From the NCBI RefSeq assembly GCF_029961145.1, contig NZ_JASBRG010000007.1:848155-912154 (forward strand): a stretch of 64,000 bases of DNA, given 5' to 3'. Under the pieces are notes generated by a model that ran no database searches, was not told the origin of the DNA, and saw only the letters and a program-made list of their open reading frames with translations. Source of the DNA: Pinibacter soli. Lineage in GTDB: Bacteria > Bacteroidota > Bacteroidia > Chitinophagales > Chitinophagaceae. Shown here one piece after another: positions 2,959 through 63,380 of this stretch; positions within the stretch are counted from its first letter, which is position 1, and each line of letters begins with the position of its first letter. The translations under genes and the position numbers were made by a program.

Positions 2959-3148
2959 AATTCAATGTCATTTAGTTAAGCAAGTTTTCAATTGCTTGGT
3001 TGCTATGTCCAGAAAACAAAGACTGCTTGTCATCCCGACGAAGGAGGGATCTGCGTCGCTAGTGTCAGGCCCAGATCCCTCGTTCCTCGGGATGACAAGC
3101 GATATGCTTTTGTTTTTTTCAAACACCTTAACTAAACGATATTGAATT
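2959..3148. repeat. Nested inverted-repeat element, copy A
   Basis: About 190 bp between the pdxA2-like and kinase genes. Outer ends are imperfect inverted repeats: TTCAATGTCATTTAGTTAAG at 2961-2980 and its near complement at 3127-3146. Inside lies a second inverted repeat built on CTTGTCATCCCGACGAAGG (3027-3045), with the complementary GGGATGACAAGCG near 3089-3101. The flanks on both sides carry AATTAGG heptamers. Copies B (36074) and C (59929) share the outer ends. It has no coding capacity and resembles a non-autonomous MITE/REP-like element. Confidence 0.75.
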
Positions 3149-3192
3149 AGGAATTAGAAGTTTGAAACTGGAAAACAGAAATTAGCTTTCTT

Positions 3193-4245
3193 CTAATTCC
3201 TAACTCCTGCTTCCTGATTTCTTTTCTTATTCTGCGCCATTTTAACAGCGTAAGATATTGCTATTGTCATAGCATCTTCGCTGGCGATGCCTTTGCCTGC
3301 AATTTCAAAAGCAGTACCATGATCGACAGAGGTACGAATAATCGGCAGGCCCAAAGTAACATTAACACCTTTTACGCTGTCCATATTTTGCGTTTCATTG
3401 TTCCATTTGAAACCAACCAGTTTAAACGGAATATGTCCCTGATCGTGATACATTGCTACGCAGCCATCATATTTTCCCTGGATAGCTTTTGCAAATAGTG
3501 TATCGGGAGGTAAAGGCCCCTCTACATTGTAACCTTCTGCCTGTGCTTGCTTTACTGCAGGTAAAATTTGTTTTTCATCTTCATCGCCAAACAGCCCGCC
3601 ATCACCTGCGTGAGGATTTAAACCGGCCACGCCAATTTTAGGATTATTTATTCCGAATTGCAAACAGGCATCATGCAATAATCTGATTACATCCAGCACA
3701 CGTTCCGTTGTAATTAAATCAACAGCTTGTCGTAAAGACACATGCGTAGTCGCGTGAATAACCCGTAACGCTTCATCAGCAAGCAACATGGCAAATTTCT
3801 TCGTCTTCGTAAAATGACCATAAATTTCTGTGTGCCCTGCAAAATGGTGTCCTGCAAGATTTACAGATTCTTTATTGATAGGCGCAGTAACCGTTGCGTC
3901 AATTTCTTTGGCGAGCGCCAGTTCTATTACTTTGTGTACGGACTCAAATGCTGCATTTCCTGCCATCGCTGAAACTTTTCCATATTCCAGTTGTGCCATA
4001 TCTACATTCTTCAAATCAAACACATCTATTGTACCATGTTCAAAACGTGCATCTTTAACTTGTTCTACAGGCCGGATCCTGAGATTGCTTTTACAAACTT
4101 TCAGGGCCGCCTTCATTACTCTTGCATCTGCAAAAACCAATGGATTGCATATGTCATACACACTGGCATTGGTTAAAGACTTTACAATGATCTCAGGGCC
4201 AATTCCAGCCGGATCACCCATTGTTATTCCTATTATTGGTTTCAT
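3193..4245 (-). CDS. pdxA2: PdxA2-type 4-phosphate dehydrogenase (D-threonate/D-erythronate pathway)
   Basis: PdxA-superfamily NAD-dependent dehydrogenase, 350 residues. The three metal-binding histidines known from E. coli PdxA are present as His168 (ATTHVS), His212 (NPHAGDGG) and His267 (YHDQGH). The N-terminus GITMGDPAGIGPE is typical. In vitamin B6 synthesis PdxA oxidises 4-phosphohydroxy-threonine. PdxA2 paralogs next to DUF1537 kinases instead oxidise D-threonate 4-phosphate with decarboxylation to dihydroxyacetone phosphate, which this operon context supports. The last codons (ending RN-stop) fall in a heptamer repeat tract at 3145-3225. A biosynthetic PdxA role is possible but less likely. 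Confidence 0.85.
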   Translation of the reverse strand: MKPIIGITMGDPAGIGPEIIVKSLTNASVYDICNPLVFADARVMKAALKVCKSNLRIRPVEQVKDARFEHGTIDVFDLKNVDMAQLEYGKVSAMAGNAAFESVHKVIELALAKEIDATVTAPINKESVNLAGHHFAGHTEIYGHFTKTKKFAMLLADEALRVIHATTHVSLRQAVDLITTERVLDVIRLLHDACLQFGINNPKIGVAGLNPHAGDGGLFGDEDEKQILPAVKQAQAEGYNVEGPLPPDTLFAKAIQGKYDGCVAMYHDQGHIPFKLVGFKWNNETQNMDSVKGVNVTLGLPIIRTSVDHGTAFEIAGKGIASEDAMTIAISYAVKMAQNKKRNQEAGVRN

Positions 4246-10983: not shown

Positions 10984-11022
10984 CCGGCAAACAATTTCTG
11001 TTGCATCCATTAAAAATTTTTT

Positions 11023-12288
11023 ATGAAAATTAAAGCCCCTCTTCCCTTAACGTTTAATAAAGCTGAAGAAGCACGCAGCAACAAGGTGTCTAAAAATTTA
11101 ACCCCTAGTGGGCAATCGAAAAAAGCAATCCCGCTGGCTTTCATTTTTGCGACTTTGCTTTTTTCCATGCTAAGCTTTTCCTGCAAAAAAGAACTGTCAT
11201 GTGCAAGCTGCCAGGCCATTAACAAACCGCCTGTTGCGATTGCCGGCTCCGACCAGGTTATTACTTTACCAACCGACAGTCTCATACTGGATGGTTCAGC
11301 ATCTAATGATCCGGATGGAACAATAAGCAAATGGCTGTGGACAAAAATTTCCGGTCCTTCTGCTGGTATTGCTAATCCTGAGACTGCAAAAACAGCTGTA
11401 AAAAATGTCGTCGCAGGAGTTTATAAGTTTGAATTAAAAGTAACCGACGAACAAGGTTTATCAGCTACTGACACGATTACAGTTACAGTAGCATTGCCTG
11501 TTGATTCGAAACAACATACTCCATGTACAGATTGCAGGATTGCATTCGTCTCTGACCGCAGTGGCGACATGGAGATCTATTCCTGCAAGTCCGATGGATC
11601 CAACATTCAACGACTTACTAACAGTAGCGGAGACGATGACCAACCGGCGTGGTCGCCGGATGGAACACACATTGCTTTCGTCAGCGGCAGATCCGGCACC
11701 TATGAGATTTATACCATAAATGCAGACGGCTCAAATGTCGTTCGCAGGACCTTCACTGGAAACTTTTGCAATAGTCCAACATGGTCGCCCGATGGAACAA
11801 GGATAGCTTATTCCATGTCGACAAATGGCAGTTATAATACTAGCCTCTGGGTGGTGGAGGCAACGGGCGGATCGCCGTCATTGCTGTTCGACGGCAAGGG
11901 CATGAACCTAAACCCGGCATGGTCACCTGATGGAACAAAGATCACTTTTGCGAGAGACTCTACCGTGAGTGAGAACTATGATATCTATACGATCAGGCCT
12001 ACCGGTACAGGACTCACCGACATCTCTCCTGTCATTAACCTCTTCGACAAGGAAGACTACATTATCCCGAGCTGGTCACCAAATGGATCAAAACTTGCAA
12101 TGATAATTCGTCAGACTACAGGCCTTTATCAATATACAACACAGATTGGTGTTACAAATGCTGATGGCAGCGGAGTTAAAGCTTTTCCCACAGCACCAAT
12201 GAAACTCGGGACAGCTATCTCCTGGTCCGCCGATGGCACGAAGATCGCGTACACATCAATGTCTGGATCCACAAAAAATATCTCATAG
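11023..12288 (+). CDS. PKD-domain/TolB-like propeller lipoprotein, 3' truncated by nonsense codon
   Basis: 421 residues as it stands. The N-terminal signal ends in MLSFSCKKE, a Bacteroidota-type lipoprotein signal with an imperfect lipobox. It is followed by one PKD/K319-like domain (about 68-156, KPPVAIAGSDQ onward) and then PD40/TolB-like beta-propeller repeats (DGSNIQRLTN, PAWSPDGTHIAF and similar). The TAG at 12286-12288 interrupts a frame that continues for 22 codons to a second TAG at 12355-12357, ending GWNATWQH. The paralog at 33305 ends NAWNPNWQH in the same place and has TGG (34778-34780) where this copy has TAG. So the last propeller strands are lost by a single base change. Function of the family is unknown; it is probably a surface-exposed binding protein. 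Confidence 0.8.
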   Translation: MKIKAPLPLTFNKAEEARSNKVSKNLTPSGQSKKAIPLAFIFATLLFSMLSFSCKKELSCASCQAINKPPVAIAGSDQVITLPTDSLILDGSASNDPDGTISKWLWTKISGPSAGIANPETAKTAVKNVVAGVYKFELKVTDEQGLSATDTITVTVALPVDSKQHTPCTDCRIAFVSDRSGDMEIYSCKSDGSNIQRLTNSSGDDDQPAWSPDGTHIAFVSGRSGTYEIYTINADGSNVVRRTFTGNFCNSPTWSPDGTRIAYSMSTNGSYNTSLWVVEATGGSPSLLFDGKGMNLNPAWSPDGTKITFARDSTVSENYDIYTIRPTGTGLTDISPVINLFDKEDYIIPSWSPNGSKLAMIIRQTTGLYQYTTQIGVTNADGSGVKAFPTAPMKLGTAISWSADGTKIAYTSMSGSTKNIS

Positions 12289-21699: not shown

Positions 21700-21720
21700 G
21701 ACAATCGTTTTTGAATATCT

Positions 21721-21780
21721 GTAGAGACAAGGCATTGCCTTGTCTGGTAGCGAAAAGACAAGGCAATGCCTTGTCTCTAC
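21721..21780. repeat. Palindromic REP, two copies head to head
   Basis: GTAGAGACAAGGCATTGCC... at 21721-21745 and AGACAAGGCAATGCC...CTCTAC at 21756-21780, separated by GGTAGCGAAA. Each copy is itself a palindrome around the central base, and the pair is inverted. The second copy contains the TAG stop of nuoK (21777-21779). Same family as 28666-28700 and 32370-32397. Confidence 0.85.
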
Positions 21781-22088
21781 GTCTCTATATCATCTTTAAG
21801 ATTATTCAGTTTACTAACATCAAGTGTTTTATGCTGGTGATATACCTGCATGACCAATGCCAGCCCCACTGATACTTCGGACGCTGCCATTGCCAAAATA
21901 AACAGGAACATCACCTGCCCGTCGGGTTGTCCCCACCGGGCACCGGCTGCAACAAATGCAACTCCCGCAGCATTCAGCATTATCTCAACAGAGATCAATA
22001 TGAAAATTATGTTTCGCCGCGTAAGTACGCCTAACAATCCAAGTACAAAAAGTATAGCGGCTACAACAAGTACTGAATATGATTGCAT
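21777..22088 (-). CDS. nuoK: NADH-quinone oxidoreductase subunit K
   Basis: 103 residues, three transmembrane helices, typical length. The conserved Glu-containing helices are present (LISVEIMLNAAGVAFVAAG and FILAMAASEVSVGLALVMQVY). Small membrane-arm subunit of complex I in the proton path. It starts 3 bp after nuoJ, and its stop codon lies inside a REP palindrome. Confidence 0.95.
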   Translation of the reverse strand: MQSYSVLVVAAILFVLGLLGVLTRRNIIFILISVEIMLNAAGVAFVAAGARWGQPDGQVMFLFILAMAASEVSVGLALVMQVYHQHKTLDVSKLNNLKDDIET

Positions 22089-28665: not shown

Positions 28666-28700
28666 CCTGTAGAGACAAGGCAATGCCTTGTCTCTACAGG
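28666..28700. repeat. Perfect 35-bp palindromic REP
   Basis: CCTGTAGAGACAAGGCA, a central A (28683), then the exact complement TGCCTTGTCTCTACAGG. Lies in the 74-bp gap between nuoE and nuoF. Family members at 21721-21780 (two) and 32370-32397. As RNA it would form a 17-bp stem, so it could act as a processing or attenuation site within the operon. Confidence 0.88.
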
Positions 28701-31144: not shown

Positions 31145-31783
31145 TCACACTTCATCTATTGACCTGAAGTTTACCATGTTCATTCTTTCTTCACGTCGTT
31201 TATCTTTCATTGATTGCATTTTGGGTTTCTCAACTCCCTGATCGCCGATCACCCAACTTAGCGGCCTCCTTTCATTCTTTACAGCTTCTCCCAACAAAAC
31301 AAGGCCCTGCATAAAAGCATCGGGTCTTGGCGGACACCCCGGCACATATACATCAACAGGTAAAAATTTATCTACACCCTGCACAACACTGTAGATGTCA
31401 TACATGCCGCCACTGTTGGCGCAACTGCCCATAGATATTACCCAGCGCGGCTCCATCATTTGCTCGTGCAATCTTTTGATGATAGGCACCATTTTAATAA
31501 ACACGGTTCCGGCAATAACCATAACATCTGCTTCACGTGGTGTACCTCTGATTACTTCTGCACCAAAACGAGCAACATCATATTTACTGGTAATACTGGT
31601 AGCCATTTCAACAAAACAGCAACTCAACCCAAAGTGAAACGGCCACATGGAATTTTTTCTGCCCCATGCAAGCAAATCCTGCACGGTCGTAAGCATTATA
31701 CTTTTACTCACAGCCTCTTCCATGCTGCCATTACCGTTAAAATTGCCGGTATCATTATCTGTTTTGCTGAACCACCATTTCAT
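31145..31783 (-). CDS. nuoB: NADH-quinone oxidoreductase subunit B
   Basis: 212 residues. Binds terminal cluster N2 with the adjacent cysteines of GLSCCFVEM plus Cys in [13 protein letters not shown] and [10 protein letters not shown]. Conserved PRQADVMIVAG-type stretch appears as [14 protein letters not shown]. The C-terminal tail of about 40 residues is longer than in minimal NuoB. Core peripheral subunit contacting quinone. Confidence 0.96.
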
Positions 31784-31785
31784 AA

Positions 31786-31918
31786 GAAGTTATGAGTTAT
31801 GAGTGATGAGTTTTGAGTTGTAAGTAGTAAGTTTAAAGTAGTATAGCAATAGTCGTAAATTTGGCGACTAGACTAGACTAGACTAGACTCAAAACTCATA
31901 ACTTATTACTCAAAACTT
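31786..31918. repeat. Opposed heptamer tracts plus GACTA pentamers
   Basis: The left arm (31788-31837) has GAGTTAT, GAGTGAT, GAGTTTT and AAGTAGT units. The right arm (31886-31916) has AAAACTC and ATAACTT units, its approximate complement. Between them lie four GACTA units plus GACTC (31865-31889). The right arm overlaps the 3' end of nuoA and encodes its last residues and TGA stop (31896-31898). Confidence 0.75.
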
Positions 31919-32369: not shown

Positions 32370-32397
32370 TAGAGACAAGGCAATGCCTTGTCTGTAC
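32370..32397. repeat. Palindromic REP in front of nuoA
   Basis: TAGAGACAAGGCAATGCC followed by TTGTCTGTA; same core as the 28666 palindrome with one mismatch in the outer stem (CTGTA instead of CTCTA). Lies between the CBS gene and nuoA, so within the presumed nuo leader. Confidence 0.82.
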
Positions 32398-32418
32398 AAT
32401 TGCAATTCCCGCTTATGC

Positions 32419-32850: not shown

Positions 32851-33304
32851 AAAAAATATTTAAGAGAGCTATTAATATGACTATTAAGTTAACACCTATT
32901 CTTATCAAATGCAAAAGATTGCGTAAAGTTTTGCAAATAAATATCTTCAGCATTACTCAAAACAAGACAATTGAACTCCAGATTCTGCTGCGCAGAAAGC
33001 GTTCCGGAGAGTTCGGTTACTCAAACTGTTAGTGAGTCCGCACACCGTTTTTGATCCTGTAACCGAAAAATATTTTGCTCATCTTAATTAATTTATTTGC
33101 ACAAGCTTATACAAAACACAGTCTTGTAAATCTTTGTAGCTTTACATTCACTTTCCGTCCAATTCTATTCTAAACCAAACGCTGCCGCTACCACCACTCT
33201 TTTTGCTACCTTCTGAAAATACCATCTAAATTTTGGTGTGAGAGATTTTCTTGTTTACCGGGAAACCGGCAGACGATTTTGTCGTATTCATAAAAGAGCT
33301 TTTC
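32851..33304. other. Divergent intergenic region
   Basis: About 450 bases between the leftward CBS gene and the rightward PKD/propeller gene. It contains a small hairpin TTCTGC-TGC-GCAGAA (32983-32997). From about 33200 on, it is similar to the region upstream of 11023 (CTTCTGAAAA, GGAAACCGGCAGACGATTT). No gene seen. Confidence 0.45.
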
Positions 33305-34849
33305 ATGAAAATTAAGGAAGTCCAGCCCTTAATGGTTAGTAAAGTTGAAGAAATGCTTTGCTGCATTTTCGCGACTTTATTTTTTGTCATGCTGAGCTTT
33401 TCCTGCAAAAAGGAATTATCGTGTGAGAGCTGTAGAGAAGCTAACAAACCACCTATTGCAATTGCAGGTCCTGACCAGAATATCACTTTACCAACCGACG
33501 GTATTTCATTAGATGGCTCTCCTTCCAATGATCCGGATGGGACGATCAATACATGGTTATGGAAAAAGATTTCAGGGCCCTCTGCATTTAGTATCATCAA
33601 TCCAAGCACAGCAAAAACAGTTGTGAGAAATATCGTTGCCGGCATTTACCGGTTTGAATTAACCGTAACCGACAACCAGGATTTATCCGCAAAGGATACG
33701 GTAACAGTAATTGTTGATTCAATACGCACAACAAATCATCCACCGGTTGCCAATGCGGGAGCCGACCAGATAATTACACTACCTGCAACTACTGCTACAA
33801 TTGATGGAAGCGGATCGACTGATCCGGACAATAATATCGCCGCTTACTTATGGACAAAAATTTCGGGACCATCATCATCAAACATTGCGACGGCAAATGC
33901 AGCACAAACGTCCGTGAGTAATCTTGTGGAGGGCTTTTACGAATTTGAATTGCTAGTGACCGATGCCAGTGGATTGTCAGACAAGGATACCGTAACGATT
34001 ACAGTGACCAAACGGTATCCACCATGCGCAGACTGCAAGATCGTATTCGTTTCTGATCGCGACGGCAATGCCGAGATCTACTCTTGCGATGCTGACGGAT
34101 CCAACATTAAAAGGCTTACAAATAGCGCCGGCGACGATGACGATCCTGCCTGGTCACCGGATGGTAAAAAAATTGCCTTCATGAGTGCAAGAACCGGCGT
34201 TCCGGAAATTTACACTATGAATGCGGATGGCTCAAATGTTACACGCAGGACCTTTACTGAGAGTTATAGCGGACATCCAACCTGGTCGCCGGATGGAGCA
34301 AAAATCGCTTACTCTTCGAACACTAATGGCAGCGCAAACATATGGGTGGTGGGAGCAACAACGGGATCACCATCGTTGCTATTAGAAAGGCAAGGACGAA
34401 ATGTGCAGCCCGCATGGTCGCCGGATGGAACAAAGATTGCATTTGCGAGCGACTGGGCAGCCTTTGACTTTGTATTTGATATCTACACCATCAAGCCGGA
34501 TGGTACAGGGCTCGTTAATGTTTCTGATATAAACATATTCGATCAAATCAATTACCTGGGTCCAAGCTGGTCACCTGATGGATCGAAACTCGCGATGGAA
34601 ATGCGCCAACCGAGCGGTACAGATCCGAAGGATATACAGATTGGTGTTATGAATGCTGACGGTACCGGAATCAGAGCCATTGCTTCAGACATAAAAGCAT
34701 GGACAGCGACATCGTGGTCTGGCGATGGAACCAGCGTAGCATACACTTCTGTATCCGGATTGAGAAAGGATGTTGCATGGGCTTCTGCCAAAGGTACTTC
34801 AAAGGGAATTATTGTAACCAATGCCTGGAATCCCAACTGGCAGCACTAA
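33305..34849 (+). CDS. PKD-domain/TolB-like propeller lipoprotein, intact paralog
   Basis: 514 residues from the ATG at 33305, chosen because MKIKEVQPL aligns with MKIKAPLPL of the paralog at 11023; the frame is open 18 codons further. Lipoprotein-type signal ending MLSFSCKKE, then two PKD/K319-like domains (about 47-138 and 145-236) against one in the paralog, then a CADCKIVFVSDRDGN segment and PD40/TolB-like propeller repeats (PAWSPDGKKIAF, PTWSPDGAKIAY, PSWSPDGSKLAM). It ends NAWNPNWQH. Probably a surface lipoprotein; ligand unknown. Confidence 0.85.
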   Translation: MKIKEVQPLMVSKVEEMLCCIFATLFFVMLSFSCKKELSCESCREANKPPIAIAGPDQNITLPTDGISLDGSPSNDPDGTINTWLWKKISGPSAFSIINPSTAKTVVRNIVAGIYRFELTVTDNQDLSAKDTVTVIVDSIRTTNHPPVANAGADQIITLPATTATIDGSGSTDPDNNIAAYLWTKISGPSSSNIATANAAQTSVSNLVEGFYEFELLVTDASGLSDKDTVTITVTKRYPPCADCKIVFVSDRDGNAEIYSCDADGSNIKRLTNSAGDDDDPAWSPDGKKIAFMSARTGVPEIYTMNADGSNVTRRTFTESYSGHPTWSPDGAKIAYSSNTNGSANIWVVGATTGSPSLLLERQGRNVQPAWSPDGTKIAFASDWAAFDFVFDIYTIKPDGTGLVNVSDINIFDQINYLGPSWSPDGSKLAMEMRQPSGTDPKDIQIGVMNADGTGIRAIASDIKAWTATSWSGDGTSVAYTSVSGLRKDVAWASAKGTSKGIIVTNAWNPNWQH

Positions 34850-34949: not shown

Positions 34950-36036
34950 CTATTTAGCCTGATATTTTTTAAGTGTCTCAGAATACTCTTTTATTTTAGC
35001 TTCAGGATAACCAGGTTTGCTATTTGCAGCGTCGATAGCAGATTGCTCCGCCACAATGGCTTTTTCTTTTTTCTCTGCCAAACTATAAAACCTCGCAATT
35101 TCATCATAGGTAGCCGGAATGTTCATGCTCCAGGGATAATGATCGATCTGAGCCTGCAGAGCATCGGTTGCCAATAAATAAACTGATGCAGGTAGTGACT
35201 TTTTTTTTTATCTACTTCGTACCAAACAATATCTGAAACACTTTTCCAGTCCGGAAAATCCACCGTTGCCCATAGGTTTCGTGCGAAAGTAACAGAGGCT
35301 TCAGGGTCGGTATGCAGCAAACCGAGGAATTTGAAATGAGGTGTGGCAAATTGTTTTATCAAAGAGGGTTCTTTGGCGAGCGCACTATCAACGACTCTCA
35401 ACATTTCGTTATAATCTTTTTTTGCTGCCAAATCGTTCAATCGTGGTATCATGTCATTGTCAATTTTAGCGACTCTTTTAGAATTCTTTAGATCTGAGAG
35501 CGCCGTGGAAATATCCCATCGACCCGATACAATTTTAGCGAGTGGTGAATCAATGATTGCGGGATGCCCCATCCATGCGATTTTTCCTTGCTGATCTATA
35601 ACCATAGCGAAAGGAATACCACCCTGCCCTACAGGTGCCAACCAGTTTTTTGCCATGTACTGTTCAGCATCATCTGCGCCAACATTATAGTGCATGGATT
35701 GGCCTTTCGGCCCTTTTATAAAACGTCGCAAAGAATCAGCATCCGTTGTATTTCGTTCCTTCACACTTATCGCAAATACGTTTACATTCTTGTCCTTGTA
35801 TTCAGATGCTACTCTTGACAGATGCGGAATATTCGCGAGACAAGGTCCGCACCACGTGGCCCAAAACTCAACGATAGTAATCTTGCCGCGCTCAACGCCT
35901 TTAGTGCTGTCACCTTTAAGCCATGTCGACACTTTAAATGCAGGCGCAGCATCTCCGACGGTTAATGTTGGTGACGATGTTTGCGCTATCACGCTTCCAC
36001 AAATCAATACCGCGATAGAAAAAATATTTTCTTCAT
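34950..36036 (-). pseudogene. TlpA-like thioredoxin-fold protein gene with two frameshifts
   Basis: The natural product would start MKKIF at 36036, continue as a signal peptide, carry a TlpA/AhpC-like domain with EFWATWCGPCLANIP, and end after EYSETLKKYQAK at 34950. Two breaks exist. First, between the ATG and AVLICGSVIAQT the frame is off by one at a T6 run (36019-36024 on plus as A6); it would need one more base or two fewer. Second, at an A10 run (plus-strand T10 at 35200-35209) the frame changes, giving a false tail ending RSIIIPGA at 35123; one added base restores SLPASVYLLATDALQAQ. The open middle part is 35123-36007. Either decay, a slippage-controlled gene or homopolymer sequencing error. 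Last gene of the SusCD locus. Confidence 0.8.
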
Positions 36037-36073
36037 TGAATTGCTTTTCTGAATGTTAAATGGTAAGGTTTAA

Positions 36074-36275
36074 ATTCAATGTCGTTCAGTTATGTTTCTC
36101 AATAACGAATGCTTGTAATCCATTCGCAAAGACTGCTTGTCATCCCGACGAAGGAGGGATCTGGGATCCGCATCAGCACGTCGTTTACGCAAACACCCGA
36201 ATCCCTCCTTCGTCGGGATGACAAGCGACGTGCGTTTATTTTTTTCGTAAAGCCATAACTAAAACGACATTGAAT
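36074..36275. repeat. Nested inverted-repeat element, copy B
   Basis: Outer ends ATTCAATGTCGTTCAGTTATG (36074 onward) and CATAACTAAAACGACATTGAAT (to 36275). Inside, the arms GCTTGTCATCCCGACGAAGG (near 36137) and TTCGTCGGGATGACAAGCG (near 36209-36227) form a long hairpin. Together with copies A and C it defines the family. Lies between the two tlpA-like genes. Confidence 0.8.
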
Positions 36276-36315: not shown

Positions 36316-37794
36316 TTACTTTGTATTCTTTGCCATGTCAATCATTGTAGCCACTTCTTCTACAGCTGCGTCCATACCACCGCTAAATCCTGTGAACTTG
36401 AAGCGTATGTTGCCATTACCATCAATCACAAACTTTGTGGGAATACCGGTAACCTTGTAGCTCGCCACAACCGGATTTGAACCTGCATCATTTTTCAAAT
36501 CCATCAAAACCTCGAAAGGATAATTGTTTCTGTTTACATAAGCCTTTGCACTGTCTGTTGCATTAGCTTCCTTTTCCCAAGTATGAATGAAAAGGAACTT
36601 TACATTCGGATCATTTTTAAATCTTTCAACAGCCATTTTCATTGATGGAAATGAAGCTTTGCAAGGCCCGCACCAGGTTGCCCAAAAATCAAGAACAACG
36701 GTCTTACCTTTATAATCTGACAGAGATACCGCGTTTCCGTCAACATCTTTCAATGTAAAATCTTTGGCAGGAACATTTATTATCTGCTTTGATACTTCCT
36801 TTCTGATATTCTCTAACAAAAGTTTGTTAACTGATGCGATATATTCCTCATAGCCTTCATTGCTTCCTTTCACTTTTGCATAAAGTGTTTTTAAATCCTT
36901 TTTCATTGCAGGCGTTGCCTGTCCGGCCTTAATGGCTTCATCAATGATATCGAAAGCTTCCTTATCTTTTCCCACTTTCATTAATGCGCTTGCATAGTCA
37001 CTGTTGATGGAACCATTAATGGATTTTGAACTATCGTGTGCTTCTTTCAGCAACGGCAAAGCTTTTTCGTAATCGCCCTGTTGTATATATACGCTGCCCA
37101 GGCTTTTGCTATAACCTGCGTAACCTATCGCGGCAAAACCGGCGCCGGGTTCGTTTCGTCTCGTTGTCTTAAACGCATACGCATCCTCTCGGGCTTTTTT
37201 GTAAAGTTCTGCTGCTTCTTTTAAGTGTCCGTTTTTTTGCAATAGATTGGCGGTACCGGCCCAGCCCTGACCCTTCCAGGCGGGAGTTGCAATCATATTT
37301 GCGTACTCCAATGCCGTCTTTACATTGTCAGCTTCTGCATAAGCAGTGCCCACGCTGAACCTTGCATAGTCGTAACTGATTTGCTGATCTGCCGGAAACT
37401 TTTGTGGTGGAAACTTCTTGATCCATGCCATGTACAATTGCTCTTTTTTAACCGGATCTTTCTCTTTGTACACGGTATCCACTTTTTCATTCCTTACCCA
37501 TATACCAAGCGGAAATTTTTTCTTACCCTCAGTAGCTATTGAATCGGCTACTTTATTCTTTTTCAACTGGTAAAAAAATCGGCTTGCAGTTAACCAGTCA
37601 GTTTCTTTATTGCTTTTCAGCAAAGTGTATAATTGATTCTCCAATTCTGCTTTATCAGCTTCGTTTGTTGAATTAGCAAGACGCGTATAATTTTTTATGG
37701 TGCTGTCTCCCGTTTGCGCATTGGTTTGCGCAATAGTCTGCTGTGACAATAACACCGTTGTGATTGTCAGGCCGAGAAAAAAATACTTTTTCAT
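36316..37794 (-). CDS. TlpA-family thioredoxin with TPR-like region
   Basis: 492 residues. Signal peptide (MKKYFFLGLTITTVLLSQQTIAQ), a long helical middle with tetratricopeptide-like repeats (about 130-310), then a thioredoxin domain with redox motif DFWATWCGPCKASFP near residue 375 and GIPTKFVIDGNG. A periplasmic thiol-disulfide protein. It lies 23 bp after susD, so it belongs to the same operon. Such TlpA proteins often accompany SusCD pairs in Bacteroidota, with unclear roles. Confidence 0.9.
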   Translation of the reverse strand: MKKYFFLGLTITTVLLSQQTIAQTNAQTGDSTIKNYTRLANSTNEADKAELENQLYTLLKSNKETDWLTASRFFYQLKKNKVADSIATEGKKKFPLGIWVRNEKVDTVYKEKDPVKKEQLYMAWIKKFPPQKFPADQQISYDYARFSVGTAYAEADNVKTALEYANMIATPAWKGQGWAGTANLLQKNGHLKEAAELYKKAREDAYAFKTTRRNEPGAGFAAIGYAGYSKSLGSVYIQQGDYEKALPLLKEAHDSSKSINGSINSDYASALMKVGKDKEAFDIIDEAIKAGQATPAMKKDLKTLYAKVKGSNEGYEEYIASVNKLLLENIRKEVSKQIINVPAKDFTLKDVDGNAVSLSDYKGKTVVLDFWATWCGPCKASFPSMKMAVERFKNDPNVKFLFIHTWEKEANATDSAKAYVNRNNYPFEVLMDLKNDAGSNPVVASYKVTGIPTKFVIDGNGNIRFKFTGFSGGMDAAVEEVATMIDMAKNTK

Positions 37795-58570: not shown

Positions 58571-58612
58571 AAAAGTTTTTACTTTTTACTTTTTACTTTA
58601 TTAAAAAGCTTA
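58571..58612. repeat. Heptamer tract TTTTTAC
   Basis: Three to four TTTTTAC-like units in the 98-bp gap between GH20 and the propeller-type hydrolase. The tract overlaps the 3' end of the upstream gene and gives its TAA stop. Confidence 0.7.
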
Positions 58613-59744
58613 CGTTAAAAGTATTAAACGCCGGCGCCGGTTTTGCCACATCTCCCTTTGAAGGCTCTTCGATAGAAGCGGCTGCAAACAAGGCTTTCGG
58701 CTGCCCATTGTTATCCGTAAAAACAAACGGTCTTTCCAGATGCGCAAGATGAATTTGCTGCTGCCCTTTTAGTTGTAGCTCTTTCAGAGAAATTAAAGAA
58801 TGCGCTGCTGGCGTCCAGACCCTACCATCTTCTGATGTAATGAGTACAAGATCTCCAAAGTCAGGCGCCAGCACTTTTGCGTTTGAATAATATTTCACGG
58901 CAGCATAAAATCTTTTTCTTTTATGATCATACCACAAACAAGGATCTTCGCAAGCCATCTCAGGTTTAGTAAACACTTCGGATATGGTTTTGAATACGCC
59001 ATCGGGCCTATCGCAAACAGCCATCCACATGGTCATGTTACCAACGTTCGGTTTGCGGGATTTGTACATCATGTAAAATTTCCCATCGGGACCTTGTGTA
59101 ACGGAGGGATTGGTAGTTACTTCAAAACTATGTTCACTATCTGCCTGCATGATAGGCTGAGCAGATTTTTCAAATTTACCGTTAATCAAGTCCTTTAATG
59201 AAGCGGCTTTCAAGACACCCACTTTTTGTGTACAGTTGTATTGCAGCCAATGCATCCATTTCTCATCGCGGGGCTTGCCAGGCAAACTAAAGCTTGAATC
59301 AAAGGAATTGCTGATGTAATACAGATAATAGTATTTGCCGAATTTCCTTATCTGCGGATTGTGCATGGTAAAGCGATCCCAAACATCATTATCTCCCGTT
59401 CCCTTCAAAATTGTCTTTACATAGTGATAAGGGCTCTCTAGTTTATCAGCGGTCGCATATGCTATCTCGCTGTACCTGAGCCATCCACTAAAGCCATCGA
59501 AAATATAATTCATTGAGTCGCCGCTCAATGACCGTTTTCCATGCGGCCATCTTGAGTAGAGCATATGGTACTTACCGTCCTCCCCTTTTATCACACTGCT
59601 GCACCAGGTGTAGTAATCGTCCGATTTAAATATCTGATTACTATCCGGTGTCTTCTGCAGCATGACTGCAAGATCGAGATCGTCTTGTGCATGCACCTGC
59701 AACAAGCTTAAGAGTGCAACGATAAATACTGCTATCTTTTTCAT
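58593..59744 (-). CDS. GH43/GH117-like five-bladed propeller glycosidase
   Basis: 383 residues from the ATG at 59744 with a signal peptide. Repeated blade motifs (DGKYHMLYSRWPHG, HNPQIRKFGKYYYLYYISN, PSVTQGPDGKFYMMYKSR, EDPCLWYDHKRKRFYA) fit the GH43/62/117 propeller clan. The acidic catalytic residues cannot be assigned with certainty. Cargo of a sulfatase/fucosidase/hexosaminidase operon, so it should act on one of the glycan's side chains. Confidence 0.72.
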   Translation of the reverse strand: MKKIAVFIVALLSLLQVHAQDDLDLAVMLQKTPDSNQIFKSDDYYTWCSSVIKGEDGKYHMLYSRWPHGKRSLSGDSMNYIFDGFSGWLRYSEIAYATADKLESPYHYVKTILKGTGDNDVWDRFTMHNPQIRKFGKYYYLYYISNSFDSSFSLPGKPRDEKWMHWLQYNCTQKVGVLKAASLKDLINGKFEKSAQPIMQADSEHSFEVTTNPSVTQGPDGKFYMMYKSRKPNVGNMTMWMAVCDRPDGVFKTISEVFTKPEMACEDPCLWYDHKRKRFYAAVKYYSNAKVLAPDFGDLVLITSEDGRVWTPAAHSLISLKELQLKGQQQIHLAHLERPFVFTDNNGQPKALFAAASIEEPSKGDVAKPAPAFNTFNVSFLIK

Positions 59745-59845
59745 CCCTAAATAATTCAAAAGTCAAAAGTTAAAAGTCAAAAATTATCCGTTCGTTCAAT
59801 CTGCTTTTTCTTTGCTGATCAACGAAAGAAGCTGTTGGTGCGTCG

Positions 59846-59877: not shown

Positions 59878-59928
59878 TGAGGCTTACTTTCATTTCTCCT
59901 GCAACACAGGATGAATTCTTAATTCCTA

Positions 59929-60224
59929 ATTCAATGCCGTTTCCTTAAGAATAATTTCCTTAAACGAGATTGCTTCGACCCGTTCCTTACGCTTCAGGAA
60001 TAGATTCCTTTTGCAATCTCCATCCTCTGCAGGGTCTCGCAATGACGGCGCTGCTATTTTGAGCTTTATCCAACAACCTGTTACCGCAGAATTCGAGAAT
60101 GGGCGCGTCATTGCGAGCCCCTGCAGAGAATGAATGGTTGAATTATATCAAGTAAAATAAACAAACAAGAAACGGGCTAAGCAATCTCATTCAGAAGATG
60201 TGTCCTTAAGGAAACGACATTGAT
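59929..60224. repeat. Nested inverted-repeat element, copy C
   Basis: About 295 bp. Outer ends ATTCAATGCCGTTTCCTTAAG (59929-59949) and CTTAAGGAAACGACATTGAT (60205-60224). Next layer: AGATTGCTT and AAGCAATCT. Inner layer: CTCTGCAGGG...CTCGCAATGACG (60025-60047) against CGTCATTGCGAG...CCCTGCAGAG (60106-60128), the widespread GTCATTGCGAG repeat. It is inserted in a tract of AATTCCT heptamers on both sides. No coding capacity. Confidence 0.8.
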
Positions 60225-60258
60225 TCCTAATTCCTAATTCTTAATTCCTGATTTGCCC

Positions 60259-61782
60259 CTACGGAGTTTCCAAAACCTTCGCTGCTTCTACATCGGCATA
60301 CTGTTTCGCTAACTCATTCAATCTCGTTATCAGCTTTGCTTGTTCTTTTTCATATTTTTTTTCGCCGTAAACGTTGTGCATTTCGTGCGGATCTTTAGAA
60401 AGATCATATAGTTCCCATTTATCGGTTATCTGGTAAAAACGGATCAATTTATACCTTGAAGTCCTTACACCGAAATGCGGAACTACTGAATGTTCTCCCC
60501 ATTCGTAATAATGATAATACACAGCATCTCTTGTCTTGTATTCTTTATTCTTAAACAATGGAAGCATGGACTTGCCTTGTATTTCCTTTGGTATTGAAAG
60601 CCCCGCCAGATCCAATGCCATAGGTGCTATGTCTATGTTCATGACCAGATCCCTATACACTGTTCCGGGTTTTATAACATTCGGAAACCTCGCCAGCATT
60701 GGTGTTTTCATTGACTCTTCATACATAAATCTTTTGTCGAACCATCCATGTTCTCCCAAATAAAATCCCTGATCAGATAAGTAGATCACGAGTGTGTTTT
60801 GTGCAAGATTATTTTTATCGAGATAGTCTAATAACTCGCCAATATTCCTATCCAGCGAAGCGGCCGTGCTTAAATAATCATGGATATATCTTTGATATTT
60901 CCATTCAGTAAGCTCCTTGCCGGTCAAATGTTTTGACAAAAAGTCTTTTTCAATTGGTTTATAATATGCGTCAAATGCTTTGCGTTGCTCCGCATTCATT
61001 CTTGTATAGTTTCCCTTGCCAAATCCTGTATCGGGCAATACTTTTAAATCATAACCCAATCGCATGGTATTGGCAATGTTCATGTCCTGGTGAGCAGCTG
61101 CATAACGACCGTCATAGTTATCGTAAAAGTTGGCAGGCAAAGGATATTTAATATTGTCAAAACGACCAAGATCCTGCGTGTCGGGAATCCATACTCTGTG
61201 CGTAGCTTTATGTCCTACCACCATGCAAAACGGTTTGGAAGTATCTCTGTTCGTTATCCACTTCTCAGCCATATCGGTGATGATATTCGTTACATACCCT
61301 TCTTTCAACACCGTATCTCCGTTCATTTGAATAAAATCAGGATTGTAATAGTGGCCCTGGCCCGGCACTATTTCCCAATAATCAAATCCCTGTGGTTTTG
61401 ATTCCAGGTGCCATTTACCCAGCCACGCAGTTTGATAACCCGCAGCTTTTAATCTTTTCACAAACACATCCTGGCTTGCATCGAATGTGCTTTGGTTGTC
61501 TTTAAACCCGTTTACATGACTGTATTTTCCGGTCAGCAGACAGGCCCTGCTGGGACCGCAAATAGAGTTGGTTACAAATGCATTTTTGAAAATAGCACCT
61601 TCTTTTGCCAACCTGTCAATGCCAGGCGTAGGCATCATCCTGCTGCCATATGCACCAATGGCTTGATAAGCATGATCGTCTGAAATGATGATTAAAATAT
61701 TAAGCTGTTTGTTTTGCGCTTTTGCAAAAAAACATGAGAGAGAAAGAAGTAGCAATAGTAATTTTCCTGGCAGTTGTTTCAT
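60259..61782 (-). CDS. Sulfatase
   Basis: 507 residues from the ATG at 61782 (MKQLPGKLLLL, a signal peptide); the frame is open 37 codons upstream without signal character. Alkaline-phosphatase superfamily. Metal site IISDDHAYQAIGAYG; formylglycine motif C-G-P-S-R (Cys75 in NSICGPSRACLLTGK); later HKATHRVW and LYDLSKDPHEMHNVYG. Removes sulfate esters from a glycan; needs an anaerobic sulfatase-maturing or FGE-type enzyme encoded elsewhere. Near GH29, GH20 and another sulfatase. Confidence 0.94.
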   Translation of the reverse strand: MKQLPGKLLLLLLSLSCFFAKAQNKQLNILIIISDDHAYQAIGAYGSRMMPTPGIDRLAKEGAIFKNAFVTNSICGPSRACLLTGKYSHVNGFKDNQSTFDASQDVFVKRLKAAGYQTAWLGKWHLESKPQGFDYWEIVPGQGHYYNPDFIQMNGDTVLKEGYVTNIITDMAEKWITNRDTSKPFCMVVGHKATHRVWIPDTQDLGRFDNIKYPLPANFYDNYDGRYAAAHQDMNIANTMRLGYDLKVLPDTGFGKGNYTRMNAEQRKAFDAYYKPIEKDFLSKHLTGKELTEWKYQRYIHDYLSTAASLDRNIGELLDYLDKNNLAQNTLVIYLSDQGFYLGEHGWFDKRFMYEESMKTPMLARFPNVIKPGTVYRDLVMNIDIAPMALDLAGLSIPKEIQGKSMLPLFKNKEYKTRDAVYYHYYEWGEHSVVPHFGVRTSRYKLIRFYQITDKWELYDLSKDPHEMHNVYGEKKYEKEQAKLITRLNELAKQYADVEAAKVLETP

Positions 61783-61924
61783 ATGTTTATTAAGTAAAAA
61801 GGTCCGAGTAGCTTCGTCTAGATATTTTGGGCGACGTGTGTTTGACGTACGTAGGTAAAAAATAAAGTAAAAAAAGTATTCGTCTGACCGCATTATACCT
61901 TTTTTACTTTCTAATTTTTACTTT

Positions 61925-63253: not shown

Positions 63254-63257
63254 ATGA

Positions 63258-63380
63258 AGGAGGTTTTGAGTTTTGAGTTTTAAGTTCTAAGTATTAAGTT
63301 TTAAGTAGTAAGTAGTAAGTAGTAAAAGAGCGTCAACTTTCTTACTACTTAAACCTTATTACTTATTACTTACTACTTTA
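63258..63380. repeat. Opposed heptamer tracts forming a long hairpin
   Basis: The left arm (about 63264-63325) is a run of GAGTTTT, AAGTTCT, AAGTTTT and three AAGTAGT units. The right arm (about 63340-63378) has TTACTACTT, ATTACTT and ACTACTT units, broadly complementary. Fills the whole gap between GH29 and the partial sulfatase, and includes the latter's TAA stop. Confidence 0.78.

Follow-up and report, generated by a model that had tools for sequence, protein, structure and literature searches.

The window analysed here, that is the whole 64-kb stretch of DNA, corresponds to G000:C11:848155-912154, where G000 is the 5.9-Mb genome of Pinibacter soli in 12 contigs. Three short elements were found in it, all of them intergenic by the ORF list of the window, and they have an 18-bp terminal inverted repeat, CAATGYCRTTTMSTTAAG, in common. 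A sequence-only reading of this DNA had located the three elements to within a few bases and had described their ends as TTCAATG(T/C)C(G/A)TTT. The common ends were recovered, with exceptions in detail: the left end of element 2 (TTCAATGTCGTTC) is one base off and the right end departs further (two and five end mismatches, respectively), and element 3 terminates in ATTGAT and not in ATTGAA. With element bounds trimmed to the conserved CAATG..CATTG, the features are as follows; a strand is given for the terminal repeats of element 3, and the other features carry none.

2952-2962: left target duplication of element 1, 11 bp, AATTAGGAATT
2963-3144: element 1, 182 bp, with AG-type ends and a TCATCCC hairpin, flanked by ORFs 1811-2923 and 3193-4245
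3025-3053: left arm of the TCATCCC hairpin of element 1 (inverted-repeat pair I10)
3072-3100: right arm of the same hairpin (inverted-repeat pair I10)
3145-3155: right target duplication of element 1, 11 bp, AATTAGGAATT
36077-36272: element 2, 196 bp, with AG-type ends (the right one diverged) and a TCATCCC hairpin, flanked by ORFs 35694-36059 and 36316-37794
36135-36165: left arm of the TCATCCC hairpin of element 2 (inverted-repeat pair I6)
36196-36226: right arm of the same hairpin (inverted-repeat pair I6)
59922-59931: left target duplication of element 3, 10 bp, ATTCCTAATT, in a repetitive flank
59932-60222: element 3, 291 bp, with CC-type ends, between the minus-strand ORFs 58593-59759 and 60259-61893
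59932-59949, plus strand: left terminal inverted repeat of element 3, CAATGCCGTTTCCTTAAG
59966-59982: second inner arm of element 3, GAGATTGCTTCGACCCG, which pairs near 60170-60189 (I1)
60021-60047: left arm of the inner palindrome of element 3, ending in GGGTCTCGCAATGACG (pair I24)
60106-60132: right arm of the inner palindrome, beginning with CGTCATTGCGAGCCCC (pair I24)
60205-60222, minus strand: right terminal inverted repeat of element 3
60223-60232: right target duplication of element 3, 10 bp, ATTCCTAATT

Element 3 sits past the stop of the minus-strand ORF 60259-61893, a sulfatase, and the minus-strand ORF on its other side (58593-59759) showed a weak GH43-like match below the cut-off. 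No ORF of ≥90 aa was present within element 3, and no Rfam family scored above its gathering score there; a match to mir-15_2 (score 26.1 vs. a gathering score of 80) was located outside the element and was dismissed. As single strands, elements 1, 2, and 3 folded far more stably than dinucleotide shuffles, with z-scores of −7.5, −9.8, and −8.3, respectively. The different inner hairpins named in the sequence-only reading were found as inverted-repeat pairs, with TCATCCCGACGAAGG in elements 1 and 2 and GTCATTGCGAG arms in element 3.

Further repeats occur in the window. Another short palindromic repeat family, TAGAGACAAGGCAATGCCTTGTCTCTA, lies at 21719-21781, 28668-28699, and 32370-32398, and low-complexity repeats with a 7-bp step (beginning AGTTATGAGT or AAGTAGTAAG) form inverted repeats at 31774-31918 and 63255-63378. 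A longer stretch is present in two diverged versions, at 11018-12193 and 33300-34688, with blocks about 71–83% identical; these are probably paralogous genes.

The distribution of the ends was investigated in the window and across the genome. A 15-bp end at ≤3 mismatches gave 30 matches in the 64-kb window against a shuffle mean of 19.4, and 2 of 100 shuffles reached 30, so that enrichment in the window on its own is weak evidence. Across the P. soli genome, the 20-bp end at ≤3 mismatches gave 94 matches (48 forward and 46 reverse), compared to three (1 + 2) for the reversed end pattern used as a control. The ends formed convergent pairs at 40 of the 48 sites inspected (three window sites plus 45 fetched ones, chosen among the 3-mismatch matches). 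The remaining eight were without a recognisable partner at ≤5 mismatches per end. The 40 paired elements were 138–291 bp long and carried two main end variants, ending in TTTAGTTAAG and TTTCCTTAAG. By motif, the TCATCCC hairpin was present in 31 of them, 26 of which were 199–202 bp long; L104 is a mutated member of this class. Five pairs, of 284–291 bp, belonged to the GTCATTGCGAG class, of which the genome holds three more elements with one diverged end each, and three others (L081, L112, and L113) clustered with an CCCTACGGGC-type interior.

An end scan of named genome contigs identified at least 113 stretches, mostly in Bacteroidota, with a few in genomes labelled Deltaproteobacteria and one in Calditrichaceae. 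A gap pattern with exact ends had 0 matches in 395 genomes of the phylum; this pattern was too strict, because on the loci already collected it caught six elements where a degenerate pattern caught 23. One stretch with an end match was found among viral contigs. Among the papers listed by literature searches, in which subscription papers are thinly covered, none reported this element family, and a literature text search for TCATTGCGAG combined with two further terms returned no paper.

Target-site duplications, which the sequence-only reading had proposed to look for, were present at 10 or 11 bp and exceeded shuffled controls. Among 108 strictly matched elements from the loci collected, perfect duplications numbered 39 at 10 bp, nine at 11 bp, and five at 9 bp, compared to 0.05% at 10 bp and 0.05% at 11 bp among 2137 random flank pairings. 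The P. soli flanks are repetitive (beginning AATTCCTAATT), which inflates apparent duplications; with targets this repetitive and A/T-rich, a control of shuffled left-right pairs is important. Against this control, the TCATCCC class in P. soli showed perfect 11-bp duplications in 13 of 31 elements vs. 3% of shuffled pairs, and the GTCATTGCGAG class showed perfect 10-bp duplications in one of five vs. 5%. Of the window elements, element 1 carries a perfect duplication of 11 bp, and element 2 has no full duplication, with AATT (4 bp) alone in common. The perfect 10-bp duplication of element 3 is weak for a single copy because its flank is itself repetitive. Intergenic repeats resembling AATTCCTAATTCC are a frequent MITE insertion target in P. 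soli, where they flank elements 1 and 3 and occur at many other loci.

Between these conserved ends, the interiors proved highly variable. The 115 distinct elements collected, up to about 520 bp long, fell into 44 interior clusters, and no alignable sequence was found between interiors of different clusters at the cut-offs used. Outside P. soli, interior types included GTCATTGCGAG, TTCGAC..GCTCAG, GTCATTCCCGCG, CCCGAAGGG, and other hairpins, mostly in Bacteroidota. Counted as single elements, 89 of 115 had an interior inverted repeat that beat all 20 shuffles. A stricter set with one count per cluster had an interior palindrome beating the shuffles in 21 of 39 clusters; palindromes are therefore common and not required. 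The nine elements with an CCCTACGGGC-type interior had AG-type ends in six cases and CC-type ends in three. One interior type within two end variants suggests, by sequence comparison, that ends and interiors reassort. The same MITE type, 153–155 bp long and with an ATTCACTATTC interior, occurred in two metagenome-assembled genomes, one labelled Deltaproteobacteria (G455) and one labelled Calditrichaceae (G486), which reflects either transfer between phyla or a binning error.

Ends of this kind were also found beside IS4-family transposase genes. At locus L162 (G026:C240, from the same family as P. soli), an intact gene for a transposase of 388 aa is preceded by an end at a distance of ~240 bp, and no right end was recognisable in L162. 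At L164 and L184, a gene nearly identical to the L162 transposase is followed by the other end, a few bases past its C-terminus. No record held both ends of the autonomous IS, the left being known from L162 and the right from L164/L184. The L162 transposase is encoded by a single ORF and matched the IS4-family model NF033592 at 148.7 bits (cut-off 115) and PF01609 at 38.7 (cut-off 23). Rules for the IS4 family laid out in passages of PMC2266710 include D(60-110)D(100-150)E spacing and a Y(2)R(3)E(6)K motif. The L162 enzyme satisfies both, with D74, D151, and E261 and with the YREK motif YHFRWNHEESYKLLK at 254-268. The AG, CC, and AC end variants all fit the IS4-subgroup end signature quoted in the same passages, -AATR--------WTW---- (PMC2266710), and the 10–11 bp duplications fit the target duplication of this subgroup, about one helix turn (10–13 bp).

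The expectation that a transposase with matching ends should exist was borne out in part: an IS4-family enzyme was found in other genomes, with its ends on separate records, and none was found in P. soli, where a protein search with the L162 transposase and a search with the family model NF033592 each gave 0 matches. The P. soli elements are therefore either orphan MITEs or served by a helper too diverged for these searches. Three candidates for an autonomous IS were rejected. Between two convergent 3-mismatch ends 1.6 kb apart in P. soli (C11:2651678 and 2653298), no transposase-sized gene was present, the two ORFs there being <190 residues and lipoprotein-like by eye. L122 (G001), with three ends within 1.8 kb, contained one 204-bp element and ORFs that were not transposase-like by eye, and L215, with ends 1350 bp apart, had no transposase-like ORF by eye.

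The lengths of the short elements seem to step by about 10.4 bp. For 38 clusters of ≤260 bp (the 44 clusters minus six longer ones), the Rayleigh R peaked, among the periods scanned, at 10.4 bp with a value of 0.593; period and phase were chosen on this set, and a period of 10.4 and a phase of 8.6 were fixed before further collection. The first follow-up, on 13 families sorted by eye, did not confirm the steps (p = 0.18; 28 length states, p = 0.11), nor did the ten families left without three that were related to clusters of the first set (G462, G498, and G499; p = 0.16). A pool of 40 families, which overlaps with the first set, was matched by 0 of 5000 draws from a smoothed null. The degenerate pattern was then run on 394 genomes of P. 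soli's family, 31 of which had matches of 85–145 bp. The second preset test comprised 29 families, grouped by eye using their first 80 bases, with rows of G031, G598, G014, G009, G001, G813, G644, and G823 omitted and with five of 43 forward matches taken for G840 and five of 18 matches for G571. It gave a mean cosine of 0.594 (p = 3e-6), and 0 of 20000 draws reached this value in each of three null models. Within this set, the 19 lengths with ≥2 copies gave 0.718 (p = 5e-6) and the 11 singletons gave 0.407 (p = 0.03). Among the papers listed by literature searches, again with thin coverage of subscription papers, none reported length periodicity for bacterial MITEs.

The steps could instead record common ancestry or the module size of the interiors and not helical phasing in synapsis, which we consider unlikely. 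Interior types do recur across genomes (e.g., TTCGAC..GCTCA), and six of the 29 families (G709, G840, G798a, G806, G561, and G524/G609) have relatives in earlier sets; a seventh, G804, looks TTCGAC-type and was dropped as possibly related. The 22 families that remained still gave a mean cosine of 0.48 (p = 7e-4), and the signal persisted when each genome contributed a single length (n = 15, p = 0.002). Strict sequence clustering left 12 purely new clusters, which lowers the signal to p = 0.014, but 33 strict clusters of ≤170 bp gave p = 3.6e-6 at the preset phase, in a pool containing the first set, from which that phase had been taken. Variants within families point both ways. Several differed by about whole turns, namely 111/91 (G490), 121/101 (G014), 131/121 (G463), 143/122 (G840), and 134/154/184 (G487), whereas others did not, namely 135/139 (G488), 124/126 (G479), 101/104 (G451), 155/141 (G455), 121/158 (G463), and those of G465, which spread from 132 to 153. 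The effect was weaker above 150 bp, as helix stiffness predicts: elements of 150–206 bp gave a mean cosine of 0.32 (n = 10, p = 0.07). Lengths out of phase include 201 bp, the commonest in P. soli, and about 192 bp in G444, and the window elements (182, 196, and 291 bp) are longer than the range with clear steps.

Inner hairpins were also observed outside clear ends. The TCATCCC arm at ≤3 mismatches had 61 + 61 matches in P. soli, and from among the matches listed, 16 regions were fetched whose hairpins fall outside the paired elements. Fifteen of the 16 had no end within four mismatches, the exception being L268 with a 3-mismatch end. One of the regions is a tandem array: at L272:2650-5815 (G000:C10, about 49.6–52.8 kb), the TCATCCC hairpin is repeated every ~165–240 bp, with an assembly gap inside. 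The hairpin loop is found there both ways round, as though recombination between the arms had inverted it. The end-less GTCATTGCGAG copies that were read had an arm order opposite to that inside the elements, as if, by their sequence, an element had arisen across the junction of two adjacent copies. Among the loci collected, seven of the 44 clusters had a relative without an end within 350 bp, a test that is weak outside P. soli because short stretches alone were searched there.

Hairpins that stand alone would be expected if a hairpin-free MITE had been invaded by mobile REP-like palindromes, moved by a RAYT/Y1 transposase, with the composite then amplified. The P. soli genome does contain three Y1_Tnp (IS200/RAYT-like) genes (C11:242721, C11:608157, and C9:119698), but in stretches of ~3.2 kb the inner hairpins were not found beside them, except for a 2-mismatch GTCATTGCGAG match at L285. 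Mobilisation of the inner hairpins by a RAYT was unsupported, since, apart from that match, the Y1_Tnp loci are not flanked by them. An invaded parent should leave common DNA beside the ends, yet the clusters have no alignable sequence at the cut-offs used. No hairpin-free shell of 85–145 bp was found in P. soli, where the degenerate pattern gave 0 matches of that size. The arm order of GTCATTGCGAG is moreover reversed inside the elements. Nested insertion is thus distinctly unlikely, and of the two possibilities raised in the sequence-only reading, repeats inserting inside one another is the less favoured. A non-autonomous unit that captures palindromes is the better-supported half, given the IS4-family ends, the 10–11 bp duplications, the unrelated interiors, and the end-less hairpins.

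It is improbable, by our reckoning, that the palindromes originated within the elements and that the end-less copies are decayed or recombined MITEs. The TCATCCC hairpin core is alike inside and outside the elements of P. soli, and besides L268 a 5-mismatch end match occurred in five of 14 short end-less TCATCCC regions compared to one of 40 control pieces of the window. Some of these regions may therefore be decayed MITEs. Yet the remaining TCATCCC regions were not above control level, the units of the tandem array at L272 bring flanks of their own, and similar palindromes occur within different end types and different genomes. The end-less GTCATTGCGAG copies, with their opposite arm order, also argue against an origin inside the elements.

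A chance likeness of A/T-rich or low-complexity ends round unrelated hairpins, for which the mild enrichment of the short end in the 64-kb window could be cited, is refuted by the genome-wide counts (94 vs. 3 control matches), the convergent pairing, the target duplications, and the ends beside IS4 transposase genes, and we give it practically no weight.

We consider it likely that the elements are IS4-family MITEs that depend on a transposase acting in trans, with a passive, exchangeable interior and with helical phase limiting the lengths of the short ones. The DNA sequences themselves show the terminal repeats and their likeness to those next to IS4-family transposase genes, together with target duplications, interiors unrelated to one another, and stepped lengths. 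From these we infer mobilisation in trans, a step of interior replacement, and that synapsis gave rise to the stepped lengths. An IS4-type transposase, supplied in trans and apparently lost from P. soli, would have recognised the 18-bp ends. These would then be paired, and the element would be excised and inserted at A/T-rich sites, of which 10 or 11 bp become duplicated, with the DNA between the ends travelling as passive cargo. Per lineage, the cargo may have been swapped for other DNA, often local palindromic repeats, and the new unit then amplified; in P. soli such cargo would be hairpins of three kinds, namely TCATCCC, GTCATTGCGAG, and the CCCTACGGGC type. Hairpins could, for example, be sites of gap repair or of a template switch that brings about the replacement; alternatively, it could arise from two end-bearing copies on either side of a palindrome. 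The ends would need about 18 bp, and the interior would only have to be short and, if very short, correctly phased. Amplifiable lengths would step by ~10.4 bp because elements below about 150 bp need their ends in the right helical phase.

We lean slightly towards a broader form of the IS4-family reading, in which, in Bacteroidota genomes, one pair of IS4-type ends was fitted repeatedly round unrelated DNA and only helically phased short interiors were amplified, so that sequence would be free and length fixed modulo about 10.4 bp; these genomes would then amount to an experiment of nature on helical twist. Such shells would carry palindromic repeats, e.g., those of the CGTC type, that reportedly lack a transposase of their own. 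Confusing intergenic repeats would thereby become a defined class, IS4-family shells with exchangeable and often hairpin cargo, and palindromic repeats without a transposase would gain a possible spreading route.

Several known systems bear comparison. MIC231 has ends of an IS4-family IS bounding cargo unrelated to the transposase. The present elements resemble it in their IS4-family ends round such cargo, whereas element 3 is without a passenger gene (no ORF of ≥90 aa) and its cargo is hairpin DNA. Mobile insertion cassettes (MICs) are named in a passage of PMC4133298, and element 3 was rejected as one, since no passenger gene lies between its ends. The elements also resemble MITEs derived from IS elements, which passages of PMC4133298 and PMC3733652 describe as small and multicopy, with IS terminal inverted repeats, a duplication, and no internal transposase. 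Correspondingly, there are 40 pairs in P. soli, of 138–291 bp and with IS inverted repeats, and element 3 contains no ORF of ≥90 aa. The present families differ in that the outer ~18–20 bp alone are common to them, whereas the interior changes wholesale, is often palindromic, and does so in many genomes. TIMEs, which are Tn3-derived miniature elements, likewise have non-autonomous ends that build mosaics from adjacent DNA, as shown experimentally according to the account in PMC4133298; in that account they have Tn3-family 38-bp ends and large composite cargo, and its passages mention neither hairpin exchange nor length steps. CGTC-tagged palindromic repeats apparently lack a dedicated transposase in the description excerpted from PMC3733652; the inner arm here starts with CGTCATTGCGAG, and with its visible CGTC tag it is a candidate for this group, whose palindromes end in the tetranucleotide CGTC and are related to a listed family. 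Membership in the REP/RAYT system was rejected, with a single 2-mismatch motif match beside the three Y1_Tnp loci.

Provided that the length steps hold, a physical constraint on the pairing of transposon ends could be read from genome comparisons alone. Such a constraint is reportedly known from engineered transposons: short artificial transposons of IS50, a laboratory construct, are said to have revealed length and twist constraints (Goryshin 1994). These are alike in combining an IS4-family transposase with a length constraint, and differ in that here the constraint appears in natural lengths. The IS50 length experiments are cited in a passage of PMC3464196. The constraint is likewise known from ciliate internal eliminated sequences, natural short elements whose ~10-bp length periodicity is attributed, in the portions of PMC3464196 and PMC9942856 that treat it, to DNA looping between the ends. 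By the same portions (PMC3464196, PMC9942856), these are eukaryotic sequences, excised in Paramecium by a domesticated piggyBac transposase, whereas the elements described here are bacterial mobile elements with a periodicity of much the same size.
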